The notes under the pieces were generated by a model. The model made no database searches and was not told the origin of the DNA. It saw nothing but the letters and a program-made list of their open reading frames with translations. This document shows positions 6,959-41,439 of a stretch of DNA of 64,000 nucleotides, piece after piece. The stretch lies in NCBI GenBank assembly GCA_002049455.2, contig KV918937.1, forward strand, positions 92,348-156,347, given 5' to 3'. Numbering within the stretch: the stretch's first letter is position 1; each line of letters begins with the position of its first letter. Source of the stretch: Porphyra umbilicalis. Taxonomy: Eukaryota; Rhodophyta; Bangiophyceae; Bangiales; Bangiaceae. Made by a program: the position numbers and the translations under genes.

Positions 6959-8455
6959 GGTGGCGTAGGGGACAAGGCCGACCGTGGGCCTGGCCGCTCG
7001 CCAAAAAGGGGCCAAGGCCACGAAGCCTGCAGGCCCAATGCTACACGAACCAAATGGGCTTGAAGCGGGACGGCGTAGCGGCTTCTTGTCTGTTGACCTG
7101 GCTCGCGGGTACAACCCGAAGCGGTGGGGGTGGGCGGCGTCAGGCATAGAGGACGGTCTTAAACGTCTGCGCAACAGGACAGAGGAGGCTGAAGAAGGGC
7201 GTTCAGTCGAACGAAACGTACGAATCTGTCAATTGAGGAACAAGTTGATGGATGAAACAAGACAACCAATTGAAATCACCGGCGTCGATTGAGACAACCT
7301 GAGTGCCCTTCGTCAGACACTCGCACACCGCAGCGGCACTTGCGTCACGGGGCCACACAAACTCTAGCAGACGGCGCTCGCCTGTGACGGTCCTGATACG
7401 CTGCAGCCTCTTGGCTGATTGGTCCACCTCTTGTCTGCCTGGGTGTGCAGAGCCTGCTCTCGCAGTCGCGCGGCGGTTTGCTTCGATGTCATCGTATCCA
7501 TCTCGAGTGGGGGCTCCGCCGCAACGATGGCGAGTGAAACCCTTAAAGTGATTGCCCGACGTACAAGCGGACCGCCAGCGTAGTGTCGGCCGCTCTGCCC
7601 GAGTCCACCACATGTGTTGTGTTCTGAGGTGTTTGTGGCCTTACGATTTATGCAACCTCCCTGCATCTCGTGTGTGCTTGCCGTGGGCGTTGACACCACG
7701 GCCTGCAAGATGCGCTCCCCCCGCGTACATGCAAACAGAGAAACACCGCTGGTACCAATATCCAACCGAGGACGGAACGAGGCGGCGGTCGACCGATGTG
7801 CAAATCCGCCCCAGGCCCGCCGCCGATAGCGTAACAAGGAAACCTGTCCATCGCTCGTCTTCACAAATGCTCGAACGAGCACGGCGGACTGTGCGGCAGG
7901 CTCCTCGAGCGGTTCCCATCTTCAAGGCGCACAACATCTCCAGACGCTGCCTGAGGCGCCTCCCTGCTGCCAGCTGTGCCTCAGAGCCGTACTTTCAGTG
8001 GCGGGGAGCGGCTGGATTTGAGCCATCAGCCGCCGGAGAAATCGACACCGAACCGTCTCTGTCGCAGGCACCTGCCGCGGGTCTTGACGGCCGGGCAGGT
8101 GGCGAAATCGATCGAGATCGTGCTGGCTTGGCAACTGGACAGCTTGGCTGAGTGGCCAGCCCCCCCCCCGTGCCACCGCTACCCTCCTGGGCACGGCAAG
8201 CACCGGCCGTTGCACGGTCCTTATCCACGCGAGCGCAGTTGGGCATCGTGGTGTTTCCACACGCGTCGCGGAGCAGGCCTCTGTGGGTGCACGCAAGGGG
8301 GCGGGTCGCTGTTGTGTGCGCAGGGGGTTGGCAGGCCGGTGCGCGGAGGAGGCAGGCTGGGGCGAGCCTTTATCAGCGCATGCACAAGTGGCGGTGGCAC
8401 GCATGCGTGCATCGACAAGCAGAGAGGGTGAGCGCCTGCTGCCGTGGCTGACGAG
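6959..8455. other. Divergent intergenic region
   Basis: About 1.5 kb between two divergently oriented genes, so it presumably contains both promoters. Short open frames occur on both strands but none shows a domain, repeat or convincing splice sites. Confidence 0.5.
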
Positions 8456-11400: not shown

Positions 11401-11532
11401 CCGGTACGAGCGTCGGGGGAGGCGGGGCGGCGGGCTTCGTTGGATGAAGGCCGCCCGCCGCAGCCGGGCAGTGACGGGGGTGGACCGCCGGTCGCAGAGA
11501 CGGTCGCTTGGGGCTTCCAGCGGATGGACTGA
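8456..11532 (+). CDS. C2H2 zinc-finger protein, frame broken at a C9 tract
   Basis: Starts at ATG 8456 (MRRDGDG). A long first frame runs to the C9 tract at 10810-10818; coding then continues in another frame to the stop at 11530-11532. The switch equals one missing C in the tract. After it come four C2H2 fingers between 11002 and about 11353: CLLC...HVNAVH, CTQC...HVAARH, CTQC...HVRRVH with a longer loop, and CPHGC...HIGRQH. The restored product is about 1025 residues with a Gly/Ser/Asp-rich N-terminus, an unassigned middle and a Gly/Pro tail. It is likely a nucleic-acid-binding protein, possibly a transcription factor. In the first frame alone the fingers are lost and replaced by an Arg/Pro-rich tail, so that frame's end at 11131 is probably not the true C-terminus. 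The N-terminal 600 residues match no family I know. Confidence 0.75.
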
Positions 11533-12399: not shown

Positions 12400-13113
12400 A
12401 CACCCCAGCGCCAGGTACCGCGCACGTCGACGATGGTGCACCAGGCTGTGTCTTGACGGCGCGAGCACGTCCACGTGTTTGGGTCCGAATAGGATATGGG
12501 TATAAGTCCGTCGCGCACGCGTGATTCGACCACCGCTCACGCCTAGTTATCCTTGCGGGGAAATCGGACTTGGCCACAGGGGAAGCGCGCATTCAAATCC
12601 CACCAAGACTAGAAGCAAGTCTCATGCTTAGCGAGATCGACCGGAGCGATGGGGCGAGTGACTGTCAGCACCGTGACCGGATATACGTTTCAATCGAGGG
12701 GATCGATATCAAGCGGCCTCTGCCGCGCACATGCGAGGGACAGGTGGCTGCCATTTGATCCAGACTCGATCGCACGTCGACCTGCACCTTGTACCCTGGC
12801 ATCTTGCGTGCTTTGAGGGTCAGTGAGGGGTGCGCGATAGCGTCGTTTCCCCCGCACAATGTTGTGTTTCCTGCGGCCGATAACCGTGACTGGAAACGGT
12901 TACTTGCCAGGGGAAACACCACATAAGCTTCAGGAAACACAAGGTTGAGATGTGCACCAGACATCAGAAAGGGCGATCACTGCTAGCCGTACGCGATTGT
13001 CACAAGGTGGATACCGCATCTATCATTGCGATCCGCAAGCCATGACTTATATCGAGCGCAAGGCCGGCACAGAGTGACGCGCATTCTTCTTCCGCCTCAG
13101 GCGCCACGGATTC
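12400..13113. other. Intergenic, no gene seen
   Basis: About 700 bp of mixed composition with only short open frames. I found no RNA gene, domain or repeat until the 181-bp array begins. Confidence 0.5.
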
Positions 13114-13735
13114 TTGGCCGGTAGGCGCCGTCCATGGTAAGCTACTTTGCCTCTTTTTTTGCCATAGCGGCGCTCTTACGGCATACGTGGGCCGCGAGCG
13201 CGGGCTTAGCCGTTCACCAGTAGTGGTTGTGCACGACGTCGCTGTCTTGGAATGCGCACGCTTACGCGGGACCGCCGTAGCGCAGCTCTTTTTTACTGCC
13301 GGCAGGCGTCGTCTATGGTACGCTGCTTTGCCTCGTTTGTTGCCGTTGCGGTGCTCTTAGGGCACATGTGGGCCGCGAGCGCGGGCTCAGCCGTGCACCA
13401 GGGGTAGGTGCGCAGGACGTGGCTCTCTTCGGATGCGCACGCGTACGCAGGACCGCCGTAGCGCAGCTCTTTTTTACTGCCGGCAGGCGTCGTCTATGGT
13501 ACGCTGCTTTGCCTCGTTTGTTGCCGTTGCGGTGCTCTTAGGGCACATGTGGGCCGTGAGCGCGGGCTCAGCCGTGCACCAGGGGTAGGTGCGCAGGACG
13601 TGGCTCTCTTCGGATGCGCACGCGTACGCAGGACCGCCGCAGCGCAGCTCTTTTTTACTGCCGGCAGGCGTCGTCTATGGTACGCTACTTTGCCTCGTTT
13701 CTTGCCGTTGTGGCGCTCTCAGGGCTCTTGTGAGC
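13114..13735. repeat. 181-bp tandem repeat, about 3.4 copies
   Basis: Units start near 13114, 13295, 13476 and 13657 (last one partial), giving a constant 181-bp period. Each begins around CCGGCAGGCGTCGTCTATGG and ends with a T-rich tract. Units 2 and 3 are nearly identical; unit 1 is more diverged. Short open frames crossing the units are by-products of the repetition. Confidence 0.95.
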
Positions 13736-15628: not shown

Positions 15629-17461
15629 TCAACAACACGCGTCATCCGGCATGGGGCGTTGATGAAAACGATAAGCAGCTCGCAACACCGTGTGCACTTG
15701 AGACAGGAGCATGAGAGACGCCCCCGCGCCGCGACGCATGCCGCACTTGGCAGACGCCTCTAGTATGGCGGCGGCAAACCAAGGGGCCAGTCGATGACGG
15801 CTTGCAGGAGGGTGCCACTGGGCGACGCCCGTGGCAAAGAGGTTGACAAAAGCCGGCGTAAAGCCATCCGTCTTGTCGAAGACGGAGCAGAGGGTGCGCG
15901 CCACCACCAGCTCCATCGGCAAATCCCACCGGCGGAAGTCAGCCATCCATCGGGCCGCGTGAGCATCTGTCTCGTCCTCCCGCGCCCGCTTTCGCTTCCT
16001 TGACATACTCCCAGATGGTGGAAGGTCGGCCGCAAGAGAGATGTTGGTTGAAGAGGCGGGCAAGATGCCCAGGAGAAAGTCCATCTCGCCAGCGTTGCCG
16101 TCTTCTGCGACAGTCGCGGCAGTCGCGGCTGTATGTGCCTTGGCGGTGACCGGGGGTCCCTTGGAAGCGCCACCGAGTCGAGCCGCGCCCCCCGGTGCTT
16201 GGCCGGCAGGATTGACATCCGCGAGCGTCGCAGCGACCTTCGCGTCCCCGGTCGTCGACTTCGGGTTCCCAACCGCCGGGATGGAGGGCCCCAGGCCGGT
16301 ATAACGCGTCTGCTCCAGCGGTCCGTACGCCGCAGACGGCTGCCCCCCCTCGCTCGGCCCCACAGACGGCTGCCCCCCCTCGCTCGGTCCCGCAGACAGC
16401 CGTCCCCCCTCGCTCGGTCCCGCCGACGGCTGCCCCCCCTCGCTCGGCCTCGCCGACGGCTGCCTTCCCTCGCTCGGTCGCGCAGACGGCTTCCCCCCCT
16501 CGCTCGGCCCCGCACCAGCTCTCGTCGAGCGCAAGCGACGCCGCCGCTTCGGTCGCGCGTCGACCAGCTCACCCTTGGCGTCAGGCTCCCGCTCCGTCAG
16601 CGTCTTGCAAAGATTGCGCATGGTGGCGCGCGTTAGTAGATTGAAGTTCTTCGCCCACGCCCTTGTGCCCACGCCGTCCGCGCGCAACAGCGAGGAGCGC
16701 TCACCAGCGGGGCATGCAAAGAACGACCGTAAGAACGACAGCGCAAACAGACCACAGTCGTGAAAGTTGGGTTGCTGGGGCACATCCGGCGAGGTGACGG
16801 CGAGGCAAGACAGCGACCATCCTTGCCGAAGTCCTCCATCGTTAGCTCCAACAACGCCACGCCGCATGCACTCGTGCTCCAACCACTCAATAACAGAGCT
16901 AGACGCACGTCCGGCGATCGATACCGAGCCCAACGAGTTTAAGAAAGCGAGAGTAGCCGTCGGCGACCCCGTGTGCGCGGCACCACCAGCGGCTGTCATG
17001 CCCAAAGCCCTGTGCAAACGTTGAACCCCCGAAAGCACAGCAATCCACCAATGATTGCCCTCACAGAAAAATAACACCCAGGTAGAGAAAGAAAAGATAT
17101 CTACAGACCGAGTCATAGCGGTCACACGAGACGCCCCCCCCCCCACGTCTCGCAAAAGCTTGTTCCAAATACTACAAAACACCAGGCAGTCGGCAGAGTC
17201 CTCCGGGGAGAGCTCCTCTTCCCAGATGTACCGGGCGATGGCGTCCACGACGCCGTCGCGCAAGTCCGTCCCGTCCTCGAGGCTCATGCAGTCCGCCCGG
17301 TTGACGGTGATCGGGCCACCTCGGCCTCGGGCGTACGTGAAGATGACGTCATGGGGCTGCGCACGGACGCCACGCGACGCCCCGGTCCAGGTATTGTCGT
17401 CATTGCTACCGTCTGGGGGCGCAGGCGCCGGTTGCAAGTCACGACCGCTGCGAGTCCGCAT
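15629..17461 (-). CDS. Ulp1-like (C48) cysteine protease with repeat linker
   Basis: 610 residues from ATG 17461. The N-terminal 250 residues look like a Ulp1/SENP-type peptidase: GNHWWIAVL gives the catalytic His (about H137), and QQPNFHDCGLFAL gives the oxyanion Gln and nucleophile Cys (about C236). The usual acidic triad position, Asp in a DSL motif, reads NSLG here (about N175), so the triad would be Cys-His-Asn. Residues 325-385 are a 10-residue repeat (PSEGGQPSAG type). The C-terminal 150 residues contain a basic KRKR cluster and an unassigned helical domain. Ulp1 domains process SUMO-like modifiers, but many are carried by DNA transposons. The isolated position near other mobile-element genes makes an element-borne protease plausible; that is inference. 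Confidence 0.7.
   Translation of the reverse strand: MRTRSGRDLQPAPAPPDGSNDDNTWTGASRGVRAQPHDVIFTYARGRGGPITVNRADCMSLEDGTDLRDGVVDAIARYIWEEELSPEDSADCLVFCSIWNKLLRDVGGGASRVTAMTRSVDIFSFSTWVLFFCEGNHWWIAVLSGVQRLHRALGMTAAGGAAHTGSPTATLAFLNSLGSVSIAGRASSSVIEWLEHECMRRGVVGANDGGLRQGWSLSCLAVTSPDVPQQPNFHDCGLFALSFLRSFFACPAGERSSLLRADGVGTRAWAKNFNLLTRATMRNLCKTLTEREPDAKGELVDARPKRRRRLRSTRAGAGPSEGGKPSARPSEGRQPSARPSEGGQPSAGPSEGGRLSAGPSEGGQPSVGPSEGGQPSAAYGPLEQTRYTGLGPSIPAVGNPKSTTGDAKVAATLADVNPAGQAPGGAARLGGASKGPPVTAKAHTAATAATVAEDGNAGEMDFLLGILPASSTNISLAADLPPSGSMSRKRKRAREDETDAHAARWMADFRRWDLPMELVVARTLCSVFDKTDGFTPAFVNLFATGVAQWHPPASRHRLAPWFAAAILEASAKCGMRRGAGASLMLLSQVHTVLRAAYRFHQRPMPDDACC
16331..16514. repeat. 30-bp in-frame tandem repeat, about 6 copies
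   Basis: The 30-bp period is exact; each unit is built around CGCTCGG...GACGGCTGCCCCCCCT. Because 30 is a multiple of three, copy number can change without breaking the protease frame. It encodes the PSEGGQPSAG linker. Confidence 0.95.
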
Positions 17462-18930
17462 GGTGAGCTGCACGTCGCTCGCGGGCCAACAAACAGCGCC
17501 AAGACGCTGCGTGGCTGGTGCTGCGGCTCAAGACAGCGCAGCGAAAGGAAATCACGTTGGGAGCACGGCGAGGACGCCACGCGCCTGACAAGCTGCATCT
17601 CGAAGCACAGTGTAAATGCCGCATCGAACCTTGTATGCAATTTATCAATCGTGTATGCACTTGTTATCGCGTACTCTGATAACATTCTAGTCCAGCAGTT
17701 TGATAGTACGTCCTAATGGAGGACCGCTGCCCCTCCCTGCTACCGCACACGGCCTCCGCCCCCGCCTGTGGCCCTTGCCCACACCTGCTGCCAACACACC
17801 AAACCCGCCGCCCCCGCCCACGCGCCCGCCCATTGCCCACGTCCGCGCCCGCTGCCCCCGCCCGCGCGGGCTGCCACCGTCACTGGGTGATACTCTCGCC
17901 CCCGCCCTGTGCCCGCGCCGCTGGCCGTCACTATCGACGCTCGTCACCGCCTTTTCGACGATGGTGGCCGCCCCCACTACGGTGACTAGAATGGTTTTTC
18001 ACTTGTTGCAGTGTTTCTTGCTTCAAGAAGGTAATATATGTATTAGGCGGTCCATAGGTATAGTGGTAGGGTTGTGGCAGCGCCAGCAGTCTCGAACTGG
18101 TGGCGCGTTGCCTGTCCAGAAAAGCATGAAGAACAGGATTCTGTGTCAAACGACGCATACGGCAGGCAAGTACGTTTGAGGTATCTCGATAAACCCGATG
18201 GAAACTGCTCCAGGCGGGTTGCGAAGCGCAGCCGAGTGACGCACTGTACCGTGCAGTGTCAGCCGAGCCTCCCATGCAAGACCATGTTGCTCTGTGAGAT
18301 CGGAACATCAGACCTGACACTGGCCGTGACTGCCAATCTCCGGATCTTGCGGGCCAGGACCGCGCATCCCTGTGACGCCTGCGGAGTTGCAGCCGCTTGG
18401 TCTCATGTCAGACGAAGAATCGAATTACAGTACTCTTCGCTTCCGTCGCGTCAGTGTTGCGCGCGCGGTCGACCAACGGCGAGTTGAATGCAGCCTGAAA
18501 ACGAGAAACTCTCGCAAGACACCGCGTGCGTATCGAGCTCCTCTGCCTATCGCATTCCTGGCGCTCATGCAGTCTGGCAAGCCGACTCCTAGACTGACGT
18601 CTGACGTGCAGCACGCACTGCTTTGTCTCCGTTCCTGGAAAAATAGCCGTCTTCCACGGAAAGGTTCGCGGTGTCAGCGGTCAACAATTGTCTCGGGCTT
18701 GAAGACGCATGACATGCATGACAATGCCGTCCACGGTAGCGTGACACGCACCAATTTGCATGTCAGCAGCACAGCCTCGACGCAAAGTCAGATGTCCGAC
18801 TCGCGTCCAAGGTGACAGACCACGTGGCGGCGCACGCGTTGAGCGCTCCCCCCACCGCGCTTTTACGCCGGCGTTTTCCGGACAGGAATGTCCTCTGCAT
18901 TTATCAGTCATCGCAAGTGGGAAAATACCA
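17462..18930. other. Intergenic, no convincing gene
   Basis: About 1.5 kb. 17.7-17.95 kb is C-rich, proline-coding low complexity. At 18050-18120 lies a sequence with a tRNA-like A box (TATAGTGGTAGG) and a T-loop-like TCTCGAA, but with too little room between them for a tRNA. Short frames near 18.4-18.8 kb show no domain. Confidence 0.4.
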
Positions 18931-20935: not shown

Positions 20936-21856
20936 CCGCGACGTTGGTGCCACGCACCTGCGTGTGCTTGTCCCAGATGTCGTTGGACACGCCCACCGAC
21001 GTCTCGTTCAGCAACGCAATGTCCGCATCGGTCTGGTCCCCCACGCGGACCCGGCGCAGCACGTGCAGCAGCTGCAAGTCGCGCGCCTGGCGGTGCGCGC
21101 CTGCAAGCACGTGAATTGTACCCCACGCCCCGCACACCGTCTGCCGCCATGTCAGCGTCTCAAACATGAAGGGCTCCGTGTCCGTCTCCTTTTGGCCGAT
21201 CGCCGCAAGCTTGCATGGATCGCCGGCTACTGTATTCATGCAGTGCAACCACGCCAAAACAGGACAGCCGGCCGAAACAGAAAACAGGCAGATAGCAGAC
21301 AATGCAATGTGAGTTGGAACCCAACTGGAAAGTCAGAACAGAGGGGTAGGCAAAGCTATGGAAAAGCGAGAAACCACACCGACAGCCGACAATGGAGGAA
21401 CGTAAACGTACAGATTACTTGGCGTCCGCCCTAGGGCTCTCCTTGCATGTGGGTGGGCGACAGCGAGCGCAGCACGAACTCCAGTAGAGAAAAATGCCGG
21501 GCGGGAAACGTCGGCGCCTCGTCAATGAAAACGACGTGCGACCGCTCCAAAATGCCGCGGATGCGGGGCTTGCTCATCACCATCTCCAGCGTCCTCTCCT
21601 TCGAAAGCTCTACCGGCGACGCACCGATGTGCGAGTGGTACGCTTGCCCGTCAATCAGCCGCGCGGCCGCCCAGGTCCACGACATGACCAGCACGGCCGC
21701 GTCGCCGTGGTCTCGCCGAGCCGCGGCGATACACGGCTGCAACACCCGGGACTTCCCACAGCCCGCCGGACCCAGGACAGCCACGTTCGTGCCACTCAAA
21801 AAGGACGCCCACACAGCCCGCTGCCCCTGGTCAAAGGAAGCCACAATGGGGTCCAT
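20936..21856 (-). pseudogene. PIF1-like helicase, truncated
   Basis: The first segment starts at ATG 21856 (MDPIVASFDQGQRAVWASF) and has Walker A GPAGCGKS, a motif I segment (WTWAAARLIDG) and Walker B VVFIDEAPTFP. It ends near 21431. A second segment on the same strand (about 21230-20936) continues exactly as PIF1 helicases do: VAGDPCKLAAIG (motif III), HRQARDLQLLHVLRRVRVG, then DADIALLNET and RGTNVAV. An intron of about 200 bp should join them, but I cannot fix its borders. The frame then runs into the 21-bp minisatellite, and the C-terminal helicase domain (the usual HxSQG region) is nowhere in the window. It is therefore truncated or replaced by the repeat. PIF1 helicases are telomere/mitochondrial proteins in hosts and are also carried by Helitron-type elements; the fragment cannot decide between these. 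Confidence 0.75.
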
Positions 21857-22198
21857 GGTCGTTGATGGTGTGGGGGAAGGCAAAAAAAAAGAACAGGATG
21901 GCGACGCACGCGGCCTCCGGGCAGGGGCATGGCGGTGATCTGGGCCGTTGGCGGACGAGGTGCGCCCCAACGACACGCCGGAGAGAACACGCGCTGGATC
22001 AGAATCCACCGTCTCTGTGCCAGTGCTTTGCGGGCGGGCCCGCCCGCCGACCGCCTCCGCGTCCCCCCCCTCGGCGACACGGCACGAACCGCGAGGTGGC
22101 GGCCTCCCCCCCCTTCCCCCCCCTTCCCCTTCCCCCCCCCCCACCCCTTTTCGCTCCCTTTCTACGCACCCACCCCCAGACGAATCCCCAGCTTTTGA

Positions 22199-25821: not shown

Positions 25822-28776
25822 TTAGACACCACTCTGTTGTTCGTTCTCGCCAACTCCCTGCTCCCCGCGCTCGCCTCCGCCATCCCCTCTACGCCCACCA
25901 CCACCTCGCTTGTCACCGACGTCGGCGCCCACGCCCGGCGGCGCAGGCACATCGTCTGTGCGACGATTGCTTCGGTTGGCGGCGGTCGCAGCCTTGTTAG
26001 CGCGGATTTTGTCCAGCTCTGGGACAAAGGCAAGCAGCTCGTCCAGCCACAGCTGCCACGGCACGCGTACAGACGGCTTTTTCTTGCCAGACGCGGTCGT
26101 CGTGACCTCCCGCTTGGCCTCCTTGTCCTTCCAGTCGAGGTCCGCCCACGCAACGTCCCACAGGCGCAGGAAGTACACGCGTGCCTTCTCCTTGTTGTCG
26201 ACGCCGGGTTTGCCCATGGCCACTTGGCGTAGCTTGTCGTAAACCCGGTCCTCCGGCTTACCGTACCCCCCCCAGCGAAAGGAAGACAGCATTATACGCA
26301 ACGACTCCGCGCTGATGTTCTTTTTCGTCTCGGAGATGACATCGGGGCGGATGTTGTCCACGTCGGACCAGATGTCCTGCTCCGCGTCGTACTCCTCCAT
26401 GAGGATGCGCGCGGCGACCATCATCCGCTTCCAGGTAGGGTATTGCTTGTTCGGGTAGACCTTGTTGACGACTGCCTCCTTCTTGGCGCCGCTGCCTTGA
26501 CGAACGCTTTTCCGGGGTGAGCGCACCGCGGCGATGCCGCCTCCTCCCCCCTTAAGAGTAGGGGCAGCCGGCGTGCTTGGTGGTGGCGCGACCTGGCTTT
26601 CCGAGGACGGTGTGACCGTCAAGGCGGTCTTGAAGCTCGCCGCCCCAGGGACCGCAGATGGCGACGACTTGGCGACGCCCAGCAGACCTACAACGGTAGC
26701 ATCAGGAGCCGCCGAGTCCGGCAGCTCATGGTTGAACTTGGCGTACAGGAGGTGGATGACGGTGAGCAAGTTGGAGATGAGGAACGGACCCACCTGTCGG
26801 ATCTCCCCGTTGATGCCCGCCGGCAGCGCGTCACGCAAAACGTCCAGGAACCACGGCTCCAGCCCCCTCTTGGTCGCCGGTGGCGAGTGGACCAAGCGAC
26901 CAGCCGCAAAGCTGATCAAGTAGTACGGCCACACGTCGGCCTTGACGAGGACGGAGATCAGTTGGTAGCGGGGAGTGGCGTCGAAGACGGCACCCACAAA
27001 AGCAAACAGCCGAGCCCATCTGCTTCCCGGAGTCTCGGAGACAGGAGCGATGACAGGGATAGCCGGGGGGGTCGCCCAGGCTGCAGCGCCCGCCCCTCCG
27101 CCCACAGGCAAATCGCTGCCGGCAGCCGCGTGAAGTGGCGGCGGCGGTGACAGCGCTGCAGTAGCGTCCGAAGAGGCCCCGTAGCGGGACCAAGGCAGCT
27201 CGGATTGGGGGCCACAGCCAGCTTGCGGGTGCCAGGCACTGCCGTCAGGGACCGCCGGCGGCCCACTAGGTGCGCCGCTCCAGACCGTTTGACCAGCTTT
27301 TCGGGCGGCCGCGCTGAGCTCAGCAGCGGCCGCGTCGTCCGCCTCCGACCACTGTGGGTGCACGGCCGCTGCCTTCTCTTCTTCCGCGGCCAGACGCTCG
27401 GCCGCCGCTGTTAGCGCGAGCGCCGCCGCCGCCACCTGCTCGTCGGCGGCCTTACGGTCGACGGCGGCCTTGCGCGCGAGCGCCGCCGCCACCTGTTGCT
27501 CTTCGGAGGCCTTGCGGTCGATTGCGGCCTCGCGCGCGAGCGCCGCCACCGCCTCCTGGTCGTCGGCGGCCTTGCGGTCGGCGGCGGCCTCCTGTTCCAG
27601 CGCCGCCGCCGCCTCCTGGTCGTCGGCGGCCTTGCGGTCGGCGGCGGCCTTGCGCGCGAGCGCCGCCGCCGCCTCCTGCTTGTCGGCGGCTTCGCGGTCG
27701 GCGGCGGCCTTGTACTCACGCGCCGCCGCCGCCTCCTGGTCGTCGGCGGCCTTGCGGTCGGCGGCGGCCTTGTACTCACGCGCCGCCGCCGCCTCCTGGT
27801 CGTCGGCGGCCTTGCTGTCGGCGGCGGCCTTGCGCACAAGCGCCGCCGCCGCCTCCTGCTCGTCAGCGGCCTTGCGGTCGGCGGCGGCCTTGTGCTCCAG
27901 CGCCGCCGCCGCCTCCTGCTCGTCGGCGGTCTTGCGGTCGGCGGCGGCCTTGTGCTCCAGCGCCGCCGCCGCCTCCTGCTCGTCAGCGGCCTTGCGGTCG
28001 GCGGCGGCCTTGTGCTTCAGCGCCGCCGCCGCCTCCTGGTCGTCGGCGGCCTTTCTTTCGGCGGCGGCCTTGTGCTCCTGCGCCGCCGCCGCCTCCTGGT
28101 CGTCGGCGGTCTTGTTGTCGGCGGCGGCCTCGCGCTCCAGCGCCGCCGTCGCCTCCTGCTCGTCGGCGGTCTTGCGGTTGGCGGCGGCCTTGCGCTTGAG
28201 CGCCGCCGCCGACTCGTGCTTGTCGGTGGGCTTGCGCGCGGCCGCGGCGCCGCGCACAACCACCTCTGTCGCCTCCTGGTCGTCCGCGGCCTTGCCGCAG
28301 GCCGGAGCTTCACGCTCGCGCTTCTTCCCGGCTACGGCCTTGTCGGTGCTCTCCTTCACGGCGCTTGCTGCTTCGTTGGCGGTTTGGCGGCGCCGCTCCT
28401 TCTTCGCTAGCCGTCGCGAGGGCTGCCTGTCGCCCGCGACGGCTAGGAGCTTGTCTTTTCCAGCGGCCAAGCGTCGCTCGAGGTCGGCGTTGTCCTCCGC
28501 AACTGTCGCCTCAGCCGCGGCGATGGCCTTGTGCATGGGGCTGAGGGCAGGCGCCGAGGGCTGGGAGGCAGCCCGAGTCCCAGCGCTGCTGTTTTGCGGT
28601 GAGGCCCGTTCGTTGGCGGTAGCGCCGCCAGGGCGTCCGTTCGACGCCAATTTGGCCAGCCTGGAGCGCTTGGAGCGCGGAGAGGATGGGACATTGGAAG
28701 AACCTGTAGCCGGTGCGCAGTCGCCGGCGTTGTCGACGGTGCGCTTAGTGCGCGGCTTGCGCTTGTTGCCGCCCAT
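25822..28776 (-). CDS. Large protein with fourteen 20-residue Ala/Lys/Asp repeats
   Basis: 984 residues, ATG 28776, uninterrupted. The N-terminus is basic (MGGNKRKPRTKRT), consistent with nuclear localisation. Residues ~170-450 are a 20-residue repeat (core AADRKAADEQEAAAALEHKA), highly charged, heptad-compatible and probably helical or coiled-coil. A Pro/Ala linker follows, then two non-repetitive regions. One (~580-690) contains SRWARLFAFVGAVFD; the other (~790-930) contains YPTWKRMMVAARILMEEY and PWQLWLDELLAFVPELDKI. The tail is Gly/Arg-rich. I recognise no family. The two Trp-rich helical parts could be DNA- or protein-binding modules of a mobile-element protein, but nothing proves that. 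The open frames on the opposite strand across the repeat are shadows of the 60-bp periodicity. Confidence 0.75.
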   Translation of the reverse strand: MGGNKRKPRTKRTVDNAGDCAPATGSSNVPSSPRSKRSRLAKLASNGRPGGATANERASPQNSSAGTRAASQPSAPALSPMHKAIAAAEATVAEDNADLERRLAAGKDKLLAVAGDRQPSRRLAKKERRRQTANEAASAVKESTDKAVAGKKREREAPACGKAADDQEATEVVVRGAAAARKPTDKHESAAALKRKAAANRKTADEQEATAALEREAAADNKTADDQEAAAAQEHKAAAERKAADDQEAAAALKHKAAADRKAADEQEAAAALEHKAAADRKTADEQEAAAALEHKAAADRKAADEQEAAAALVRKAAADSKAADDQEAAAAREYKAAADRKAADDQEAAAAREYKAAADREAADKQEAAAALARKAAADRKAADDQEAAAALEQEAAADRKAADDQEAVAALAREAAIDRKASEEQQVAAALARKAAVDRKAADEQVAAAALALTAAAERLAAEEEKAAAVHPQWSEADDAAAAELSAAARKAGQTVWSGAPSGPPAVPDGSAWHPQAGCGPQSELPWSRYGASSDATAALSPPPPLHAAAGSDLPVGGGAGAAAWATPPAIPVIAPVSETPGSRWARLFAFVGAVFDATPRYQLISVLVKADVWPYYLISFAAGRLVHSPPATKRGLEPWFLDVLRDALPAGINGEIRQVGPFLISNLLTVIHLLYAKFNHELPDSAAPDATVVGLLGVAKSSPSAVPGAASFKTALTVTPSSESQVAPPPSTPAAPTLKGGGGGIAAVRSPRKSVRQGSGAKKEAVVNKVYPNKQYPTWKRMMVAARILMEEYDAEQDIWSDVDNIRPDVISETKKNISAESLRIMLSSFRWGGYGKPEDRVYDKLRQVAMGKPGVDNKEKARVYFLRLWDVAWADLDWKDKEAKREVTTTASGKKKPSVRVPWQLWLDELLAFVPELDKIRANKAATAANRSNRRTDDVPAPPGVGADVGDKRGGGGRRGDGGGERGEQGVGENEQQSGV
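27421..28260. repeat. 60-bp in-frame tandem repeat, 14 units
   Basis: Exact 60-bp period, each unit starting CGCCGCCGCC. Central units differ by a few bases and the outermost are more diverged (28201-28260 most of all). It encodes the 20-residue helical repeat. Confidence 0.97.
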
Positions 28777-30433: not shown

Positions 30434-31408
30434 CTACGATCCACGCGACATGACAGAGCAAAACGTGTGCATCTTGTTATATCCAAACCGCTGTCCTCGC
30501 CCAGCCCGCTTCACGCGCTCCACGCGAAGCTGGTCACGGAGTGCTGCCCACCCACCGGCTCTGCTCGCTGCCTTGACAATTGCTCGGCGCTTGGCGAGCA
30601 TGGAAGAAGATGCCCGTCCAAAATGCTGCTTCTTGTCCAGCTCGCGTCGTTCAGGCTGGCCCTGTTGAAGCTTTTTGAGCGCGATGGTGGAACCAACACC
30701 TTCTTCCCAAGACCGCTCGACGACATCCATCATGAGCTCCCAGTCACGGGGAAGCCGCTCCATTGCAATTGGCTTAACACCGATCTGCAGGGCAGCGGAT
30801 GAGCTCTGCTTACGAGGATGAACGCTGCAAGTGCACGAAGAACAACCGCTAGCACTGGTGACCATAGACGGTGGCAAGTTCCCTGCGGGCAGCGCGCTTG
30901 ACCGCATCGGCTGGGACCTTGCCGCCTCGAGAATCGGTTGCCCAAAAGAAGCACTGGCAAGAACCGAGGCCGACTGAACGAACTGGGCGGCCAAACCCAC
31001 GGAGGCAGCGCCTCGGCGATGGGCTGCTTTGATGTTCTTGAGCCGAGCCTCGATGGAGTTGCAAAGCGCGCGGACCGGCGCAGATATTTGTTGCTGCCGT
31101 CGACCAGCCACGAGAGCGTGCGCGAGACGCAAATGACCGTCAATGTTGTCAGGAAGAGGACGCGGTACAAAAGCACGGTTCAACGGGTTCACGGCAGCAG
31201 CAATCCCCACGACGAGCTTGTCTTGGGTTGGATGAGCCATCAGACGACGCGGAATTCTGACTTGCTCACGACAGAGACTGCTCGTGACACGTCCGAGGTT
31301 GGCGAGGCAACGCAAGATGCCGGTCCCGTCCTGCGGGCCAAGGAAACCCCCGATAAGGGACGAGTTTTGCTTCCATATGGTCCGAGCCGTTATGGTCAGA
31401 AACCGCAT
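30434..31408 (-). CDS. Unassigned 324-residue protein, possible GCR1_C-like segment
   Basis: ATG 31408 (MRFLTITARTIWKQN), uninterrupted. The N-terminal half has moderate composition with helical segments (VRALCNSIEARLKNIKAAH). Near residues 215-290 the pattern LPRDWELMMDVVERSWEEGV, then IALKKLQ, an Arg/Lys-rich loop and HFGRASSSMLAKRRAIVKA resembles the layout of GCR1_C DNA-binding domains: Trp-x-E followed by Gly, a short helix, then a basic helix. GCR1_C domains occur in fungal Crypton-type recombinases. The resemblance is by eye only and weak. The gene is divergent from the tyrosine recombinase 1.6 kb away, and the two could belong to one element. Composition is less GC-extreme than the host block. 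Confidence 0.5.
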   Translation of the reverse strand: MRFLTITARTIWKQNSSLIGGFLGPQDGTGILRCLANLGRVTSSLCREQVRIPRRLMAHPTQDKLVVGIAAAVNPLNRAFVPRPLPDNIDGHLRLAHALVAGRRQQQISAPVRALCNSIEARLKNIKAAHRRGAASVGLAAQFVQSASVLASASFGQPILEAARSQPMRSSALPAGNLPPSMVTSASGCSSCTCSVHPRKQSSSAALQIGVKPIAMERLPRDWELMMDVVERSWEEGVGSTIALKKLQQGQPERRELDKKQHFGRASSSMLAKRRAIVKAASRAGGWAALRDQLRVERVKRAGRGQRFGYNKMHTFCSVMSRGS

Positions 31409-32973
31409 GTGGACGGGCGTCGCAATTGTGGCCCACTGATGTCAGATTGCACGCCTGTCGTGATTATCGAGGGAGAGAAATACATCGCCTTTTCAATCTC
31501 TTAAGCAAATTGAGAATCCGGTACGGGATAACGCCATCCCGTCACCGAATTGCAGACGTAATCGGGTAGGTAATTGTATTTGTCTGGGCGTATCTTGTCT
31601 GTCGCGCACAACGCGTCCCGACGGCCAATCGGATCAGCGCAGCAACAGCCCGCTGAGAGTGGCTGATCCGGTGGCCCGATCCAGTCCCTGGTTTGTCGGC
31701 CCGGTGGGCCAGGCTGCCGCAGTCGACGCTTGTCGAACGCCAATCCGAGCTCCTGACGCGCCCACCTTTGGAGTCAGCCGCCCCAACTCGTGTCTCATCA
31801 TCGTTTTTGTTTTTCTCTGCTTACATACACACACTGTGCCTCACTGTCCGGCCCCCTGAAGTGTACTGGAGATTGATTCTCTACGACGTGAACAGCCTGG
31901 TCGTCAGCAGCCGCGGGGACTCGTCTTTGCGACCAGTCGCTTTCGAGGAGCTGTACATATTTTGGTTTTTCTATCGTGGCGCACTCTCCTCATACCTCAT
32001 GGTCTCGTCCCTGCTGACCAATCCTGCCCCACAGGCGTCCCCTCCATTTGATGTATCTGCGCCCCGTGATGGCAACGCAGTCGAGAAGGCGGACGAATCG
32101 GCGCGGACTGCTCCATCCGTGTTGCGCGTTGTGAGCGGATACGCTGTACGGGCCCATCCTCCGCAATCATGTAGTGCGCTTTTGGCAGCTTGTACGCGAC
32201 GAGGTGCCGGGGCCCTGCTCAGAGAACAAGGGGAAGCAACCGATTCTTGCTTATGACGCTGTTCCTCGAAGTCATCCCTGCTACTTGTAGTCCTGTTTTT
32301 CATCTGCGTGCGCGACTTGGCTGTTGAAGAGCTGGCTCACACTAAGTATGTGCTATCGTTCTTGTTGCTTTGTCAGTGGAGATTTTTTTCTTCGTGCGCT
32401 GTGAGCTTGTGCCTGGTCTTATGCTGATCAGACATGGGATGCGGTATTTTCTTCGAGCTTCGCTGCTGTCAACAGGGCCTCCTTGCAACCCGGCAACAGG
32501 GCGTCCGTGCAACCCGACGTACGACAGGGGTACCGCATTCTTATCCAACGAAAGAGACGTTTTAACATGGTGATGCAACGTTCGAGAAGGCCCCAACGCA
32601 TTGATGTTGCGAAGTTCTTTGGAGCTGGCGATTCTCGAGCCACGTTGTTCGTCAATGCCACAGACAGGCGGGAAGAGTACATCGCTTGTTTTTCCGTACG
32701 TAAACGATATTCGAGTACAACACAAAAGATCCAGTCACAAGGTTCGTAAATACATACGACAGCAAAGCGAAACCTCGTAGGTCATTCGCCAAGATTTTCG
32801 AAGAGGCTGCATGCGGATAATTTGTCAGCTCGCGCACGAATCACGTTCCCACGTCATGGTGCGAGGTGTCTTGATTATGGCGATCATATCCTCTCGCTGC
32901 GGCGTGCACTCTCGCTGCACGCACGCTCTCATCTGGCAGGCAGGCCCGCGCTTCGACATCGGCTGTGAGCAGA
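31409..32973. other. Divergent intergenic region upstream of the recombinase
   Basis: About 1.56 kb of moderate GC. It contains a short duplicated motif at 32473-32518 (CAACAGGGC.TCC.TGCAACCCG twice). No domain-bearing frame. It may hold the promoters of both flanking genes and possibly the left end or recombination site of the proposed element. Confidence 0.4.
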
Positions 32974-34400
32974 ATGTCATCTGCGGCTTCCGTGGATCGC
33001 GGTTCGTCGCGGCTTTCCGGCTTACAAGATGGCCGCACGAGCGCAGCGCGGAGCGTAGCGTGGTTAAGTCTTGCACACTCGGCCAACACGTATGATCCTG
33101 TGGCTTCTACAGCGGCCGTTGTTGAGACGGCTCGCTCACAAAGCAGCTCCGAAGTACACAAGCGCACCCGGGAGGAATACCTCGAGTATTGCGCAAAGGT
33201 CGGCGTTGATCCGTTCAAGGTGAACGCAACCTCTGCGGCGCACGTCGCCACGTTCTACAAGGCGCGCACCAAGAACTTCGAGCTCGGTACGTCGACTTCC
33301 AAGCATGTGTCTGCCTAGATGACATTGTTTTTTACTGAGCTAGGTTGCACCGGTCGTTGGACGACGGGCGAGATCGACGGAAAGGCGTTTGTCAACGGCA
33401 ACCCGAACGACAGCAAGGCTGTCGAGGACATGAAGCGAGCTCATAAGGTCAAGCTCGCTCGCGATGGACGCGTGACACTTCCAATGGACCCGCTGGAGTA
33501 CGGGCACATCTGTGCCTACTACGATCACTTCATTTTCGACGAAGACAACGTCTCCCCGCGGATTTTGTCGCAGTTTGCCGCCATGATGACGGCCACCTTT
33601 CTTCTTATGCGCTTTGACGACGTGACCAAGATCAAGTACGTAGATGAGAGTTCACGCCGAGTGCGCGAATAATCCATCTTTGCGCCTGTCCGAACCGAGG
33701 CCTGGTCCTTTGTACTCGGCTTGTCTCGATCTGATCTTCAGGGGCACTGATACTAACCAGCTTGAGCTCATCTGTCCGAATGCGGTTCTTGTTTGGAGCG
33801 TATTGTATACACGGCGCTTTGTGACGCAGGCGAGAAGACGTCCTGCAGACGGAGGACGTGCGAGGTAACCTGGTGTTTCGCATCAACATCCTCGACGGAA
33901 CGAAGACGTCAACGTCAGGCCGACGGTACTACCTTGAAGGTGGGCCTGGTTTGGTGGGCGACCCCCGCGTAGATCCTGTTCTGGCTTTGGCCATGTACCT
34001 GATGGTGCGTGGAGATGCCGACGGCTTCTTGTTCTGCCCATTTCCCGCCCTGCCGTCTGTGGGTTGGGAGATGTCGGTGCACATCAAGCTCAAGGACAAC
34101 GTCTTTGTCGAGTCCTTGCGCCATTCGCTTGATGGAGCTGGTGTGGACTCGTACAAGTTCTTGGGGACCCATTCCTGCAAGCGTGGAGGTGTCCAGCTTT
34201 ATCGTCTTCTGGGTGTGGCCGATACGGAGATTAAGGAACGCGGTGGTTGGCATACCATGGCCGCGTACTGGGCCTACGTCCAAGCATCTAATCGGCTTGA
34301 AAAGCGCTTTACGTACACATCACCGGCGGCGGCGCTGGCAGATGTGATTGTCAATGGGGGAGAGGTGCCCGAGTGCGTGCATCGGAGTTCGGAGATGTGA
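32974..34400 (+). CDS. Tyrosine recombinase (Crypton-like), three exons
   Basis: Site-specific recombinase of the tyrosine (phage-integrase) fold. Exons are 32974-33286, 33344-33635 and 33830-34400. The introns start GTACGT and GTACGTAG and end CTAG and CGCAG. Phases match and give 391 residues, joining FEL/GCTGRW and TKI/KREDV without a break. The first catalytic Arg is in LLMRFDDVTKIK (R194). The HxxR box reads THSCKRGG, with H316, K319 where Arg is usual, and R320 beside it. GGWH gives the late W/H position (W342, H343), and AAYWAYVQ supplies the Tyr nucleophile (Y348 or Y351). The N-terminal 180 residues look like a core-binding helical domain (REEYLEYCAKVGV). I chose ATG 32974 because it is the only ATG in that open frame. 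Intron-containing recombinases of this sort in eukaryotes are typically Crypton or DIRS-like. There is no reverse transcriptase nearby, which favours Crypton. Its closest neighbour, 435 bp downstream in the same direction, is the RecQ-like helicase. Confidence 0.85.
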
Positions 34401-34834
34401 GGAGCTAGTCACAACGCCCGGTTCAGCATGATTGCCTACTGCCAAGAAATGGTGACGATCTTCTCTTTGCTTTGTACGATGATTCTTGTTCGAACAGCAT
34501 CGTGTGATGGTAGAACATTGGTTGCGACATGGTCATCATGCCTTCTCTATTTCCTTGTGCATACTTTCCAGTCGTGAGATGGTCACGCGCTCTGATGCGC
34601 GCTGAAAATTCATGTAGGCATGTATACGTGATTTTGAACTGGTACGGTACGCTGTTTTGTGGTAACCAAATCAGGCCAGAACGTAACGCGATTATCGCGT
34701 TCAAAGAGAGGGCTCGCGCGGATGCCAAATTCGTCAGCTGGGGCCTTCGTAAAGAGACTTGAGAAGCGGCGCCGTGCGGCCGCGGCCAGCTCCGAACGTC
34801 GTGCACGTGCTCGGCGACACGCTCGTGCGTAGCC
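34401..34834. other. Spacer between recombinase and helicase genes
   Basis: 434 bp. A short frame (ATG 34719 to TAG 34830-34832, 37 codons, Ala/Arg-rich, ending RRARARRHARA) stops 2 bases before the helicase ATG in a different frame. It could be a regulatory upstream frame or chance. Confidence 0.4.
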
Positions 34835-37115
34835 ATGGAGCGATCCTATATCGAGGCAGCCGCTTTGGACACCCTCGACCATAAGTTTGGCCATGCAAAC
34901 TTTCGGGCTGGACAGCTTGAAGCTATCATTCCACTTCTCGAACAGGACCGTGATGGGGCGGACGTCCTGTCTGTGATTGCCACGGCATCGGGCAAGGTAC
35001 GCTACATCTCGTCTTTGGGCGGAGGTCGTGCTACTCGTTCTGGTTCCCGTTCAGCGTGTGTGGCATGTGCGGCAGCGACCTTCGCATTTATTTTTCTTTT
35101 TGTCAGTGCGCTGATAAGATTGATTCTGCTCGCTATTGCCGTCGTTTTCCTGCTCCATCTGTAGACGACTATCTTTGGTGTTGCTGCTACCCTCCTCTAT
35201 GAGCGAAGCAAGGCTTTAAGCGTTATGCTGGTCCCTCTGAAGGGCCTTGGCCGTCAGCACGCGGACATGATGACAAAGGCTGGCGTGTCGGCATTGGCAC
35301 TTTCTTCTTCTAGCACGACGGCGGAGTGGGCGCGCTGCAAAACGATGATCATCGAGAAGGCTCTGTGCGCGCTCTTCATCTCTCCAGAGGTGTTGTCCCA
35401 CAACTCGAGCTTCGCCAAGCTGTTGAACGAGCACAACATCGCTCTTCTTTGCTTCGACGAAGCTCATCTTTACAACGACTGGTACCTTTGGAGGCCCACC
35501 ATGTCAATGGCGGCATCCTTGGTGAGCGCTCAACGCCGCCTGGGTCTGACGGCCACCATGCGTCGTCGGGACCAGCAGCTTGTCGTTAGGCGCACGGGGA
35601 TGTCTACCCCCATCGTGCAGCGTGGACGCTTCCTCCGGTCAAATCTGCTTCTTCAATTCCTCAAGCGGCCGGCTGCCCTGACCTTTGGCCGGGCGTCAGT
35701 GGCGGACCGACTTTCGGCGGCCACTGAGGCCAAATGGCGGATTGCACGCACTCTTCGTATGGCCATCAAGGCTCGGTCACTCCAAGGGAACACCATCGTT
35801 TACGTTCCTTCACGTGCACAGGCCGAGACAGTTTGCAAGCAGCTGGTGCAGGCAGCTAAGGACCAGAAGTTGGTTGCTGTAGGGGCGGCGCTCAAATTTC
35901 GCCCTTATCATGCAGGCCGTACGGACCGCTCCGAGGTCGAACAGCTGTTCTTGTCCCAGCGCGGAGTCGTCGTGGTCGCGACAATTGCGTTTGGTCTTGG
36001 CGTAGACTGCGCCCACGTCCGCGTGATCATCCATTTCGTACGTTGTTGGTACTTTGCTCACCTGTTTTGGTCACCATGTTCTATACTTGTAACCATCTTA
36101 GCCGGATTTCTCGTGCTTCGCACTGGCAGCCAGCTTGATGTCCGGTCTTGAACAGCGACGTGGACAGCTCGAGCTCACCATCTTTTTTGTTATACGCGTG
36201 CGCTTTTCTTGGCGTATCTTCTTTTCTCTCTTGTTTGTTTTTCACACGTGGCCTCTATGTACGTCTGATTCAGTCAGGGGCGAGGTCCTTGGCTGAGTAC
36301 GCTCAGCAAGTCGGCCGCGGCGGACGTGACGGTGAAGACGCGTACTGCTTGTGCTTCTACAATCCAAGCGACAGCCAAGGGATCCGGCGCAGCATCGAGT
36401 CGGCGGTTTTGACGACGTCGACGACGACTGCCCTCATGCGCAAGGTAGCAGAGCGCACAACCGAACGCGGCCCAGCTTCATTTTAACATTGGGCCGACTT
36501 CCACAGGGCTGGCATCGACGACGACAACACGGATGCCGTCTTAGCCGCGCTCTGCCGCACAGGCTTGGCGCTAGCAGGTAAGCGACAACCCGCGCGCATC
36601 TCGGCAATGAAGGGCTCAAAGTGGACCTTCAGCCGCTCCCCGCGTTGTCCAGGTTTGCTCTAGCGCTGTGGCAGGATCGCTTTCAGGCCGCGTTCGCTTC
36701 GGGCAAGCTCAATGTGGCTGTTCGAGGTGATGTGCGAGACGTGTGCACGGTGCCACCCTTCCTGGAGATGGGCGCAGGTGGGCCCACGGTGGTTCACGAC
36801 GCGCTGGAGGACCTGGCTGCTGCAAAACTCGTCGACATCGACTATAGTGATGATTACCCGTTGGTTCAACCCCTGGCAGTGCTCGATCGCCAAGATGCGC
36901 GAGCTGCCGGGCGGCTGCTTTCCAAGTCCATGAAGTCGGCTGCGGCGCAGCAGCTCGCTGTGCTTGACGAAGCCCTCGACTTCATGGAAGCTGATGGGTG
37001 CCTTCAACGTCGGCTTTGTGACGTTTTCGGTGCACCTGATGATTTGGACGCTCCTGTTGAGTCCTGTCGTTGCGGTATGTGCGAGCCCGCGACGATTGGA
37101 GCCGGTTTTGCTTGA
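34835..37115 (+). CDS. RecQ-like DNA helicase, about five exons
   Basis: Superfamily 2 helicase expected to unwind DNA 3'-5' using ATP. Proposed exons are 34835-34996, 35165-36037, 36274-36444, 36507-36577 and 36653-37115, giving about 579 residues. Introns start GTACGC, GTACGT, GTAGCA and GTAAGC. The first splice completes Walker A across the junction (ATASGK/TTIFG). Motif II is CFDEAHLYNDW (D152-H155) and motif III is LGLTATM. Motifs V and VI read ATIAFGLGVDCAHVRVIIHF (from about 326) and then, after an intron, EYAQQVGRGGRDG. These are diagnostic of RecQ, though RecQ normally has CxSxW where this protein has LYNDW. The canonical zinc-binding RQC cysteines are absent; a CRCGMC cluster lies near the C-terminus. 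Exon 4 is the weakest: its splice phases fit the neighbours, but another frame there (AGIDDDNTDAVLAALC) looks more protein-like. Sharing strand and spacing with the recombinase suggests a functional pair. Confidence 0.85.
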
Positions 37116-38690: not shown

Positions 38691-39619
38691 GCCGTTGCGC
38701 CCCTAAATCGGGCGACAGCTACCGGGCCCAGCGCGGTCGAGCCTATCGGTGAGACGCCATTTTTCAACGCCCTCGGTAGAGCGACCGAGACCACCGTGCG
38801 CGCGCGCGCTTCCACACGGCCGCAAGAACACAACAGCACAGTACCACGTCTGTGTGGTGCTGGTCCGCTCAGGAACGAATGCCAGCGTGCGTGCCTGCGG
38901 CGGCAGGCCCCGCCGCCCCGCCAGCGTCGACGCGGCGGAGGCCGCCCCCCCCCCCCACTGGCCGGACGGGGGCCACGTACGGCTGCCGTTAAGAGCAAAT
39001 AGGGGGGTGGCCGCCCGTGTCTGCGCACGCGTGCACCCCGATGGGTGCGCGTCGCGCGTGTGTGTAGGGCGCCGCCGCCATGTTGAGAGGCAAGGCGCCG
39101 GCGGCGCGTTTTACGCGGGAGGTCGGCCGGCCAGTGCGGGCAGCGTGCTTTCAACGCACACGTGCCATGCTCGGAACACCAATTGCAGCCGCGCGACATA
39201 TGTTTTCAAGCTCCGCACGTGAAGTCAAGTCATGAATAATTCCGAAAGAAGTGCACGAGCACCGCTCCAATGGGCCGCGTATCCGGCGAGCTGGCTGCCT
39301 AATACATGCGATCGACTGATCCGACTGAGCGATTACGTGCGATCAAGCTGGTTAAGAGGTCGATCACATGCCTGGTAATCCGCGATCGGCCAGATTGACG
39401 CCGCCACGGCATCCCCTCCGGGAAACGCAATCGGGAGCCTGAAAGCCGATTCGCGCTTCCTGAACGCCTCTAACCCCCAGTTAAGGCCCAGTGTTCCGGC
39501 TCTTCTGGGTTTTTAGAGGAATCGCTGCACATGGTTGGCTCTCACATCCAAATGCGACCCCTCATTGGTAGAAGACCCTGATGTCAGCTCTGTTCCGCCA
39601 TCTATCGGAAATGCGCCTC
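38691..39619. other. Intergenic
   Basis: GC-rich to about 39.2 kb, then mixed. Short frames only; no domain or RNA recognised. Confidence 0.4.
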
Positions 39620-39659: not shown

Positions 39660-39877
39660 AAAACTGTTCCCTGGCCTTTAGGACAGGGTGCTCTCAAAGG
39701 AGGGTTGTCAGCGTTTGGTTTGGTTTGCCAAACATGAACGGAATTCAACCTGATTCACTTGAACGCTGGAGCGTTCAGGTTGAACGCAACATGTCAAAGG
39801 GCGTACTTGTTCCGCGTAATACTTAGTGTGCCACGTTTAATGTAGTTGAGATTGTGTTTGGGGAAGTCGGGTTGTCT

Positions 39878-39903
39878 GACTCGAGCTCCATCGAGCTTGA
39901 GTC
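39878..39903. repeat. Hairpin, 11-bp stem with one mismatch
   Basis: GACTCGAGCTC and GAGCTTGAGTC flank a 4-base loop (CATC), with one mismatched pair. Confidence 0.85.
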
Positions 39904-40189
39904 GCTCAGCCGATGGAGCGTGTGCATAGCAGGCGTGCTGCAGTCCCAGTGACAGAGCCCTGCTTGCCTACCCCACCACCGGGACACAATCCAAACGACT
40001 GGTACGGGCCGACACCGGGGCGACGACGTTGACAACCGCCTGGTCCTCTGCGCAGTAACGGAGACGGGGGGCCCAAACAGAAAGGACCAAACACCGATAC
40101 GTGTAGACGGGGCGTTGAGGGCGAGTGGATGCCCCGATGTCCGAGAAGCAGCTTGCTGCACTCCACGCAATCCTGGGTGCGACCACCGT

Positions 40190-40220
40190 GGATGGATGGG
40201 TCGTGACGACCCATCCATCC
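40190..40220. repeat. Near-perfect palindrome, 15-bp arms
   Basis: GGATGGATGGGTCGT and its exact reverse complement are separated by a single G at 40205. Confidence 0.97.
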
Positions 40221-40543
40221 TCCAGCAAAAAAGGCTATGATTCACGCACACGTTGACAGCAGATGAATCGGTCTACGTACTCAGCAGCTAGGGTGCTACA
40301 CAGCCGATTGGCAACAGTTGACATGAAGGAGGGTCTGGGAGCAGAACTCTCAGCGCGACTGACCTGCAGGGGGTATGGCAACGAGGCAGTCAGAGCGGCC
40401 GCACAGCGCCGAACCACCTGTCTGATCACTTTGAAGTGGTCAACGAAAGCTCCTCTCTGCCCGGACAATTAAACATAAATACAACCAAGTCGTTTGTCGT
40501 TTGGTTTGGTTCGTTTCTTGAAATCAACCTGATTCATCGAACC

Positions 40544-41439
40544 ATCTGTAGATTCAACATGAACTCACAACCCTGTCTCAAAGTGTAGTGATGCACACAT
40601 ATACTTAGATCGTGGGACTTTTTCTCCGGTTCAGAGGTGACAGTCTGCATTCGTGTCCTCAGGGATCAGAGGTCGTGTCAGAGTTGGAAGGGTCGCGATG
40701 ACGCTAAAAGCGAATAGAGTTACGTGGCTCAGAAGGACTGTCCTGCCACAGGGGTCACGGGGCGCCTGCCCCCCTGCCCCCCCCCACCGTCCCGAGTTGC
40801 GCGAGGCGACCGACTTCCGGGGTTCGAAGCGCCCACGATGACCCGCGTGTGATCGTGCCTGCGCGCCGGCTTCTGTAGCGGCGGCGCGTCGGCGGTTGCT
40901 GACACCATCTACCGGTTGCGGTTAGAGCCGCTTCGTCGCGCAGTGGTCGATCCCATCCGCCCGCCCGTGCGCCGTGTCGGCCGCGCGCAGGTGCGCTGCG
41001 CGGCGGTGTGATGGCCCCGCCCGTAGGCGTTGCACCACACCGGCGGGCCGCTGCCGCTGCGGCGGCGGCGGCGGCACCCCTTTCCCCGCCCCACGCCCCC
41101 CCGCCATGGCAACGTGGCTTCTCCTATCCATTCAAACAAAGTCACCACAAAAAGAAAGTTAACCCAATGCATACTGTCGTGTCGCCTCAACAAAATCATG
41201 ACCAGGGCCCATCCGTCCGTGTAATGAAACGAAGCAGACTGAGGGTCGCGCGCAGCAACAGCATAGTTCACAAAGGTAGCCCCGCGCGGTCGGTTGGCCG
41301 ATGGCAAGTGCCGGCTCCTCGGAGCCGTCGACTGGACAGCCGGTATTGACTCTCCTGGGCGTCCGCCACCACGGAGAGACGCGTTGTGGACAGTTGAACC
41401 ACAGCCATTCATAGACGCCGAGACGGTCACCACGTCGCC
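40544..41439. other. Intergenic
   Basis: Mixed then GC-rich. A minus-strand open frame covers much of it but is low complexity. No gene supported. Confidence 0.4.

Follow-up and report, generated by a model that had tools for sequence, protein, structure and literature searches.

The window analysed here, a 64,000-nucleotide stretch of the genome of the red alga Porphyra umbilicalis that is part of contig C177, carries on its plus strand a tyrosine recombinase (YR) gene (32974–34400) and, closely downstream, a RecQ-like helicase gene (34835–37115). Both genes lie near the right end of a repeated element which occupies 12545–39480 (26,936 bp in this copy) and at whose limits the similarity to other copies stops. 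The YR gene consists of two plus-strand exons. Exon 1 (32974–33635) contains an in-frame stop at codon 115 (33316–33318) in this copy, and exon 2 (33830–34400) encodes the His, a Lys at the usual Arg position, the Trp and the Tyr. An earlier reading of the letters alone (the sequence-only reading) had described a complete three-exon YR. The gene and its catalytic residues R194, H316, W342 and Tyr351 (numbering of that reading) are conserved, but the gene has two exons and an in-frame stop and is thus not complete. The residue numbers match a splice model with a first intron at 33287–33343. This segment aligns without gaps to other copies, with 68% identity to the C387 copy and 75% to subfamily B, and the latter ungapped identity identifies it as coding sequence rather than an intron. 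The sole stretch of the gene that behaves like an intron is 33636–33829, where copies show 47–51% identity with gaps. The YR frame was free of internal stops in nine of the 14 copies checked (C383, C75b, C355, C119, C108, C84, C41, C275 and C48) and contained them in the other five (C177, C429, C75a, C181 and C387).

The predicted structure of the YR matches Cre; the mean pLDDT was 46 for the first model (20-row alignment) and 53 for the second (29 rows). Cre has an Arg three residues after the catalytic His, and the residue at the corresponding position of the window's YR (H316+3) is Lys in 15 of the 16 aligned members (alignment A2). Pfam gave no YR match for the window's protein, and PDB sequences searched with a profile of the first YR alignment yielded no credible match. 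A relative, P0009, was found in Pyropia yezoensis (42% identity, 93% of the query covered). A single scan of viral contigs with P0009 revealed no YR relatives, and the viral structure library yielded one match below 0.001, to an unnamed protein.

The helicase gene starts at 34835, 434 bp past the YR stop codon, and both its position on the YR strand and its RecQ-like nature were as the sequence-only reading had stated. It is composed of exon 1 (34835–34996, RecQ-like), exon 2 (35165–36037, with the DEAD and Helicase_C domains) and exon 3 (36274–37115), all on the plus strand. The core is of the RecQ type, with matches to E. coli RecQ (4.9e-35) and to TIGR01389 (1.2e-27, under its equivalog cut-off) and a weak match to the RecQ zinc-binding domain (0.13). 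The first splice model contained four introns; introns 1 and 2 hold, and other copies have open coding sequence in place of introns 3 and 4. In the window's copy, exon 3 is interrupted by a stop at 36484–36486, and near 36627 its length is altered by 1 bp. Both genes of this copy are therefore broken, by in-frame stops and, in the helicase, by a frameshift. Among the 13 places of subfamilies A and B at which exon 2 is covered in full, the exon is stop-free at five (C177, C429, C108, C41 and C84) and contains stops at eight. Many copies of the element are decaying, and other copies retain open frames.

The recurrence of the pair was examined, as the sequence-only reading had proposed, in the whole 83.8-Mb assembly, which gave 117 YR matches and 45 helicase matches. 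Sorting the YR matches by hand yielded 27 close loci, whose best segments reach about 50% identity or more, and 27 distant ones (25–40%). At 21 of the 27 close loci, a RecQ-like helicase match lies less than 1 kb downstream on the same strand, although the matches at C233 and C264, which are included in this count, are weak (28–29% identity). Three further close loci have the helicase farther off (C123, C119 and C10, at 2.7, 12.3 and 13.3 kb, respectively, the C10 match being weak), so that 24 of 27 have a match within 13.3 kb downstream; no match was found at C387, C29 and C2. The distance from the YR end to helicase exon 2 is typical of the subfamily (768–771 bp in A, 671 bp in B and 918–921 bp in C), and the gene order is kept across subfamilies whose helicases are 38–43% identical to that of the window. 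Copies within one subfamily are not independent of each other. In P0008, a predicted protein of a metagenome contig, the YR and helicase segments are joined in one frame, which shows that the linkage is present in another assembly too. The recurrence of the linked pair at different loci supports the earlier interpretation as a two-enzyme mobile element. A conserved single-copy host RECQ orthologue was rejected because the helicases of the element exist in several copies and are linked to YR, and for the same reason the two genes cannot be regarded as merely occurring apart.

Related helicase genes at C11, C7, C103, C505, C146 and C40 have no close YR match alongside and may mark more divergent elements. 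The long-frame helicase matches at C104, C278, C21, C332 and C318 look like better candidates for the host RECQ.

DNA self-comparison showed that the similarity between copies runs far past the gene pair, to 12545 on the left and 39480 on the right. The span 32974–37115, to which the sequence-only reading had confined its element, is thus about 4.1 kb of 26.9 kb. The recurrent YR–helicase pair stands, but the extent of the element had been set too small, as the elements measure 26–45 kb and contain at least one more conserved gene. The left terminus (12545–12573, plus strand) begins with AGTTATCCTTGCGGGG and reads AGTTATCC; the right terminus (39470–39480, plus strand), CTAACCCCCAG, reads CCCCCAG and is followed in the flank by TTA or similar. 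At the left junction, 11 of 12 rows align at one start next to 10 distinct flanks (one of them common to C355 and C429); the first bases of C145 differ, and the C31 row did not align. Nine distinct flanks follow the right end, with small differences in C119 and C176. In these nine flanks, T occupies position +1 in six and position +2 in all, and A occupies position +3 in eight. Searches with the left and the right terminus found 14 places each.

Nine contigs carry both ends in the correct orientation. The shorter of these elements are those of C177 (26,936 bp), C429 (26,210 bp), C41 (36,147 bp) and C108 (36,171 bp), and the longer ones are those of C383 (41,213 bp), C84 (43,554 bp), C355 (43,880 bp), C75 (44,402 bp) and C119 (44,701 bp). 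C355, C429 and C439 have common flanks and were counted as one insertion. A single end or wrongly oriented ends were present on C145, C176, C31, C77, C439, C70, C275 and C48. Both ends are common to subfamilies A and B, with an identity of about 72–75%. The ends of subfamily C (C77, C1, C411 and C110) were not found by the terminal searches, which reached A, B, C176 and C31 and, on C77, a left end without a matching right end.

The window's copy is bordered by the direct repeat AGTTA, the left copy of which (12545–12549, plus strand) lies within the element, and the right copy (39479–39483, plus strand) has AG in the element end and TTA in the flank; the sequence of the repeat varies in some other flanks. 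There is no terminal inverted repeat: the ends in the window give one 12-bp inverted match with one mismatch, and those of C84 none. Comparison of empty and filled sites, another check suggested by the sequence-only reading, located an empty site in a host repeat. When the flanks of the window's copy are joined, 14 other places match over the junction and for 7 bp or more to its left; this left-hand match is mostly 7–8 bp long, but 18 bp in C88 and 38 bp in C10. The empty site at C10 reads CACGCCTAGTTCAGG, with one AGTT and small gaps further left, and other copies of the host repeat supply the empty site. The C119 element is inserted into a similar sequence (CACGCCT-AG-TTCAGG) at the corresponding position, which hints at site preference.

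Directly left of the element lies a repeat of about 95 bp (12442–12537) with at least 20 matches at 87–90% identity and no Rfam family. An RNA gene as the left-flank target was rejected: Rfam gave nothing, and ARAGORN gave nothing in four settings, with marginal calls at a lowered threshold being disregarded. Two high-copy repeats are located right of the element, at 39701–40575 (89–94% identity to other copies) and 40576–41119 (80–94%). Farther left, the region 8432–11532 contains long plus-strand frames with a stretch which we take to be C2H2 zinc-finger-like.

The element also carries, at 15629–17527 on the minus strand, an open frame of 632 amino acids encoding a C48 (Ulp1-like) peptidase (Pfam PF02902, 5.6e-6, above the cut-off). 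Its homologues are found upstream of YR; those of subfamilies A and B are encoded on the strand opposite to YR, those of C77, C1 and C46 on the same strand as YR. The gene is a further conserved part of the element. YR, the RecQ-like helicase and the C48 peptidase co-occur at many loci in fixed-end units that have short AGTTA-like direct repeats and an empty target site that can be identified.

The interior is less uniform. The middle segment 18914–25778, which holds a PIF1-like helicase fragment (21431–21862, minus strand), is absent from most other copies, and C429 and C75 instead share a middle of other sequence, roughly 5 kb long, whose breakpoints lie at the same positions to within 2 bp. 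The variable middle looks like cargo variation, though separate rearrangements may have produced it. An open frame of 984 amino acids (25822–28776, minus strand) contains tandem repeats of 60 bp, and its C-terminal half is conserved; it is 72–73% identical to subfamily B at the DNA level over about 26000–27022 and has four homologous proteins. A putative gene with a frame of 335 amino acids (30434–31441, minus strand) is partly conserved (67–73% DNA identity to C84, C41 and C108 across parts of 30457–31228). Neither the 984- nor the 335-aa frame matched a Pfam family. Tandem repeats occur at two places in the element, namely at 13117–13732, close to the left end, with a 181-bp unit, and at 27419–28295, within the 984-aa frame, with a 60-bp unit. 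A short similarity (32% over 88 residues, E 3e-6) links the ends of the C48 protein to part of the 984-aa protein. In the subfamily B copies C41 and C108, parts of the element are present twice, 9.6–9.8 kb apart, and C75 holds two YR–helicase modules.

Between subfamilies A and B, dN/dS was 0.043–0.058 for YR (four pairs) and 0.082–0.094 for helicase exon 2 (three pairs), these ratios being rough since dS between subfamilies is close to saturation. Comparisons with C46 gave 0.19 and 0.30. Both genes thus show purifying selection between A and B. The values within subfamilies (0.17–0.56) are in keeping with decaying copies.

We consider the element to be a giant (26–45 kb) YR-type DNA transposon of Crypton-like build, with a probability of roughly 0.85. 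Excision as a circle and re-integration have been proposed for Cryptons (PMC3212892). By analogy, recombination between the AGTTA repeats by the Cre-like YR would set the element free as a closed circle and leave a restored target, and this circle would then insert at another AGTTA-like site. The helicase might act on joint molecules (Holliday junctions) or help to copy the large circle before insertion, a less secure step suggested by the biology of RecQ. The peptidase could conceivably strip SUMO marks or mature an element protein, which is the most speculative step.

The weightiest alternative is that the YR element is real and the helicase is a passenger (cargo) gene without a part in its movement. 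No helicase was detected at the three close loci mentioned above, and the 30 kb downstream of 24 of the 27 distant YR loci (25–40% identity) contain no helicase match; C281 has one at 2.8 kb, and the two other distant loci have one at 14.6 and 25.1 kb, respectively. The pairing is accordingly a property of one YR clade. The six places with a helicase match and no adjoining close YR also favour a cargo gene. On the other hand, order, strand and near-constant spacing are kept in subfamilies whose helicases have diverged to 38–43% identity with that of the window, and the helicase is under purifying selection, whereas the middle segment of the element varies between copies. We therefore regard a mere passenger role as unlikely.

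A few-kilobase Crypton-like unit beside a captured helicase, with the 27-kb span arising from nested insertions and duplications, would account for the size range of 26 to 45 kb, the large insertions in C119 and C70 and the internal duplications in C75, C41 and C108. It is nevertheless very improbable given that the same two ends occur in the right orientation in nine units on nine contigs and are shared by A and B despite their divergence, and no clean short units with only YR and helicase between other fixed ends were seen in the DNA comparison with other copies. Least probable of all is a decayed integrated Polinton-like virus: such viruses, described in protists with sizes of 14–40 kb (PMC12220804), can carry a YR, and the size range and the cysteine peptidase would fit, but the frames scanned with Pfam yielded neither a capsid nor a packaging ATPase nor a DNA polymerase domain, and P0009 had no relative in the viral-contig scan, although diverged or spliced genes could escape both.

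If the transposon interpretation is correct, it touches the question of how Cryptons and other YR transposons multiply and how eukaryotic nuclei would handle very large YR circles. The conserved helicase beside the recombinase makes a need of the helicase for movement testable. As RecQ also occurs in the DDE transposons Kolobok and Academ, one repair enzyme would have been recruited repeatedly by unrelated transposition chemistries. The family is moreover a giant YR family outside fungi with its ends and target mapped. Tentatively, and with somewhat less than even confidence, it could be viewed as a separate red algal superfamily of giant YR elements, a counterpart of Starships, with a dedicated RecQ in its transposition machinery that copies or resolves the 26–45 kb circle and a YR with Lys in place of the second catalytic Arg.

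Starships (PMC12134995) are likewise giant elements that are carried by a YR, have short direct repeats and vary in their contents; however, their captain with DUF3435 leads from the 5' end, whereas the YR described here lies near one end and reads towards that end, and DUF3435 (PF11917) did not match the window's YR, P0009 or P0012. No reverse transcriptase, such as DIRS-like retrotransposons encode, was present among the frames scanned, small or spliced frames being outside the scan. RecQ helicases have been reported as accessory proteins of DDE transposons, namely KolobokH of fungi and one from a rhodophyte (PMC9587614) and Academ (PMC3627910); the transposase is of the DDE type there and a YR here. 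Red algae are also mentioned as having giant EnSpm elements (PMC12477816). The fungal telomere-linked RecQ helicases (PMC4522978) are also multi-copy RecQ-like genes, but the copies described here adjoin YR in elements with defined ends. No description of a YR element with RecQ was recognised in searches of an open-licence library, Repbase and subscription literature lying outside that search. The element encodes a YR and has direct repeats of 4–6 bp, as do members of the Crypton superfamily, a likeness by features and not by tree placement. With CryptonS and the oomycete CryptonF (PMC3212892), it has in common the YR, short terminal direct repeats (5–6 bp in CryptonS), the lack of terminal inverted repeats and, with some of them, an Ulp1-related C48 peptidase. 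It differs from them in the RecQ-like helicase beside YR, the size of 26–45 kb, AGTTA instead of TATGG and the red algal host. The closest known elements are thus CryptonS and CryptonF with the C48 peptidase, and the size and the YR–RecQ pairing are the new features.
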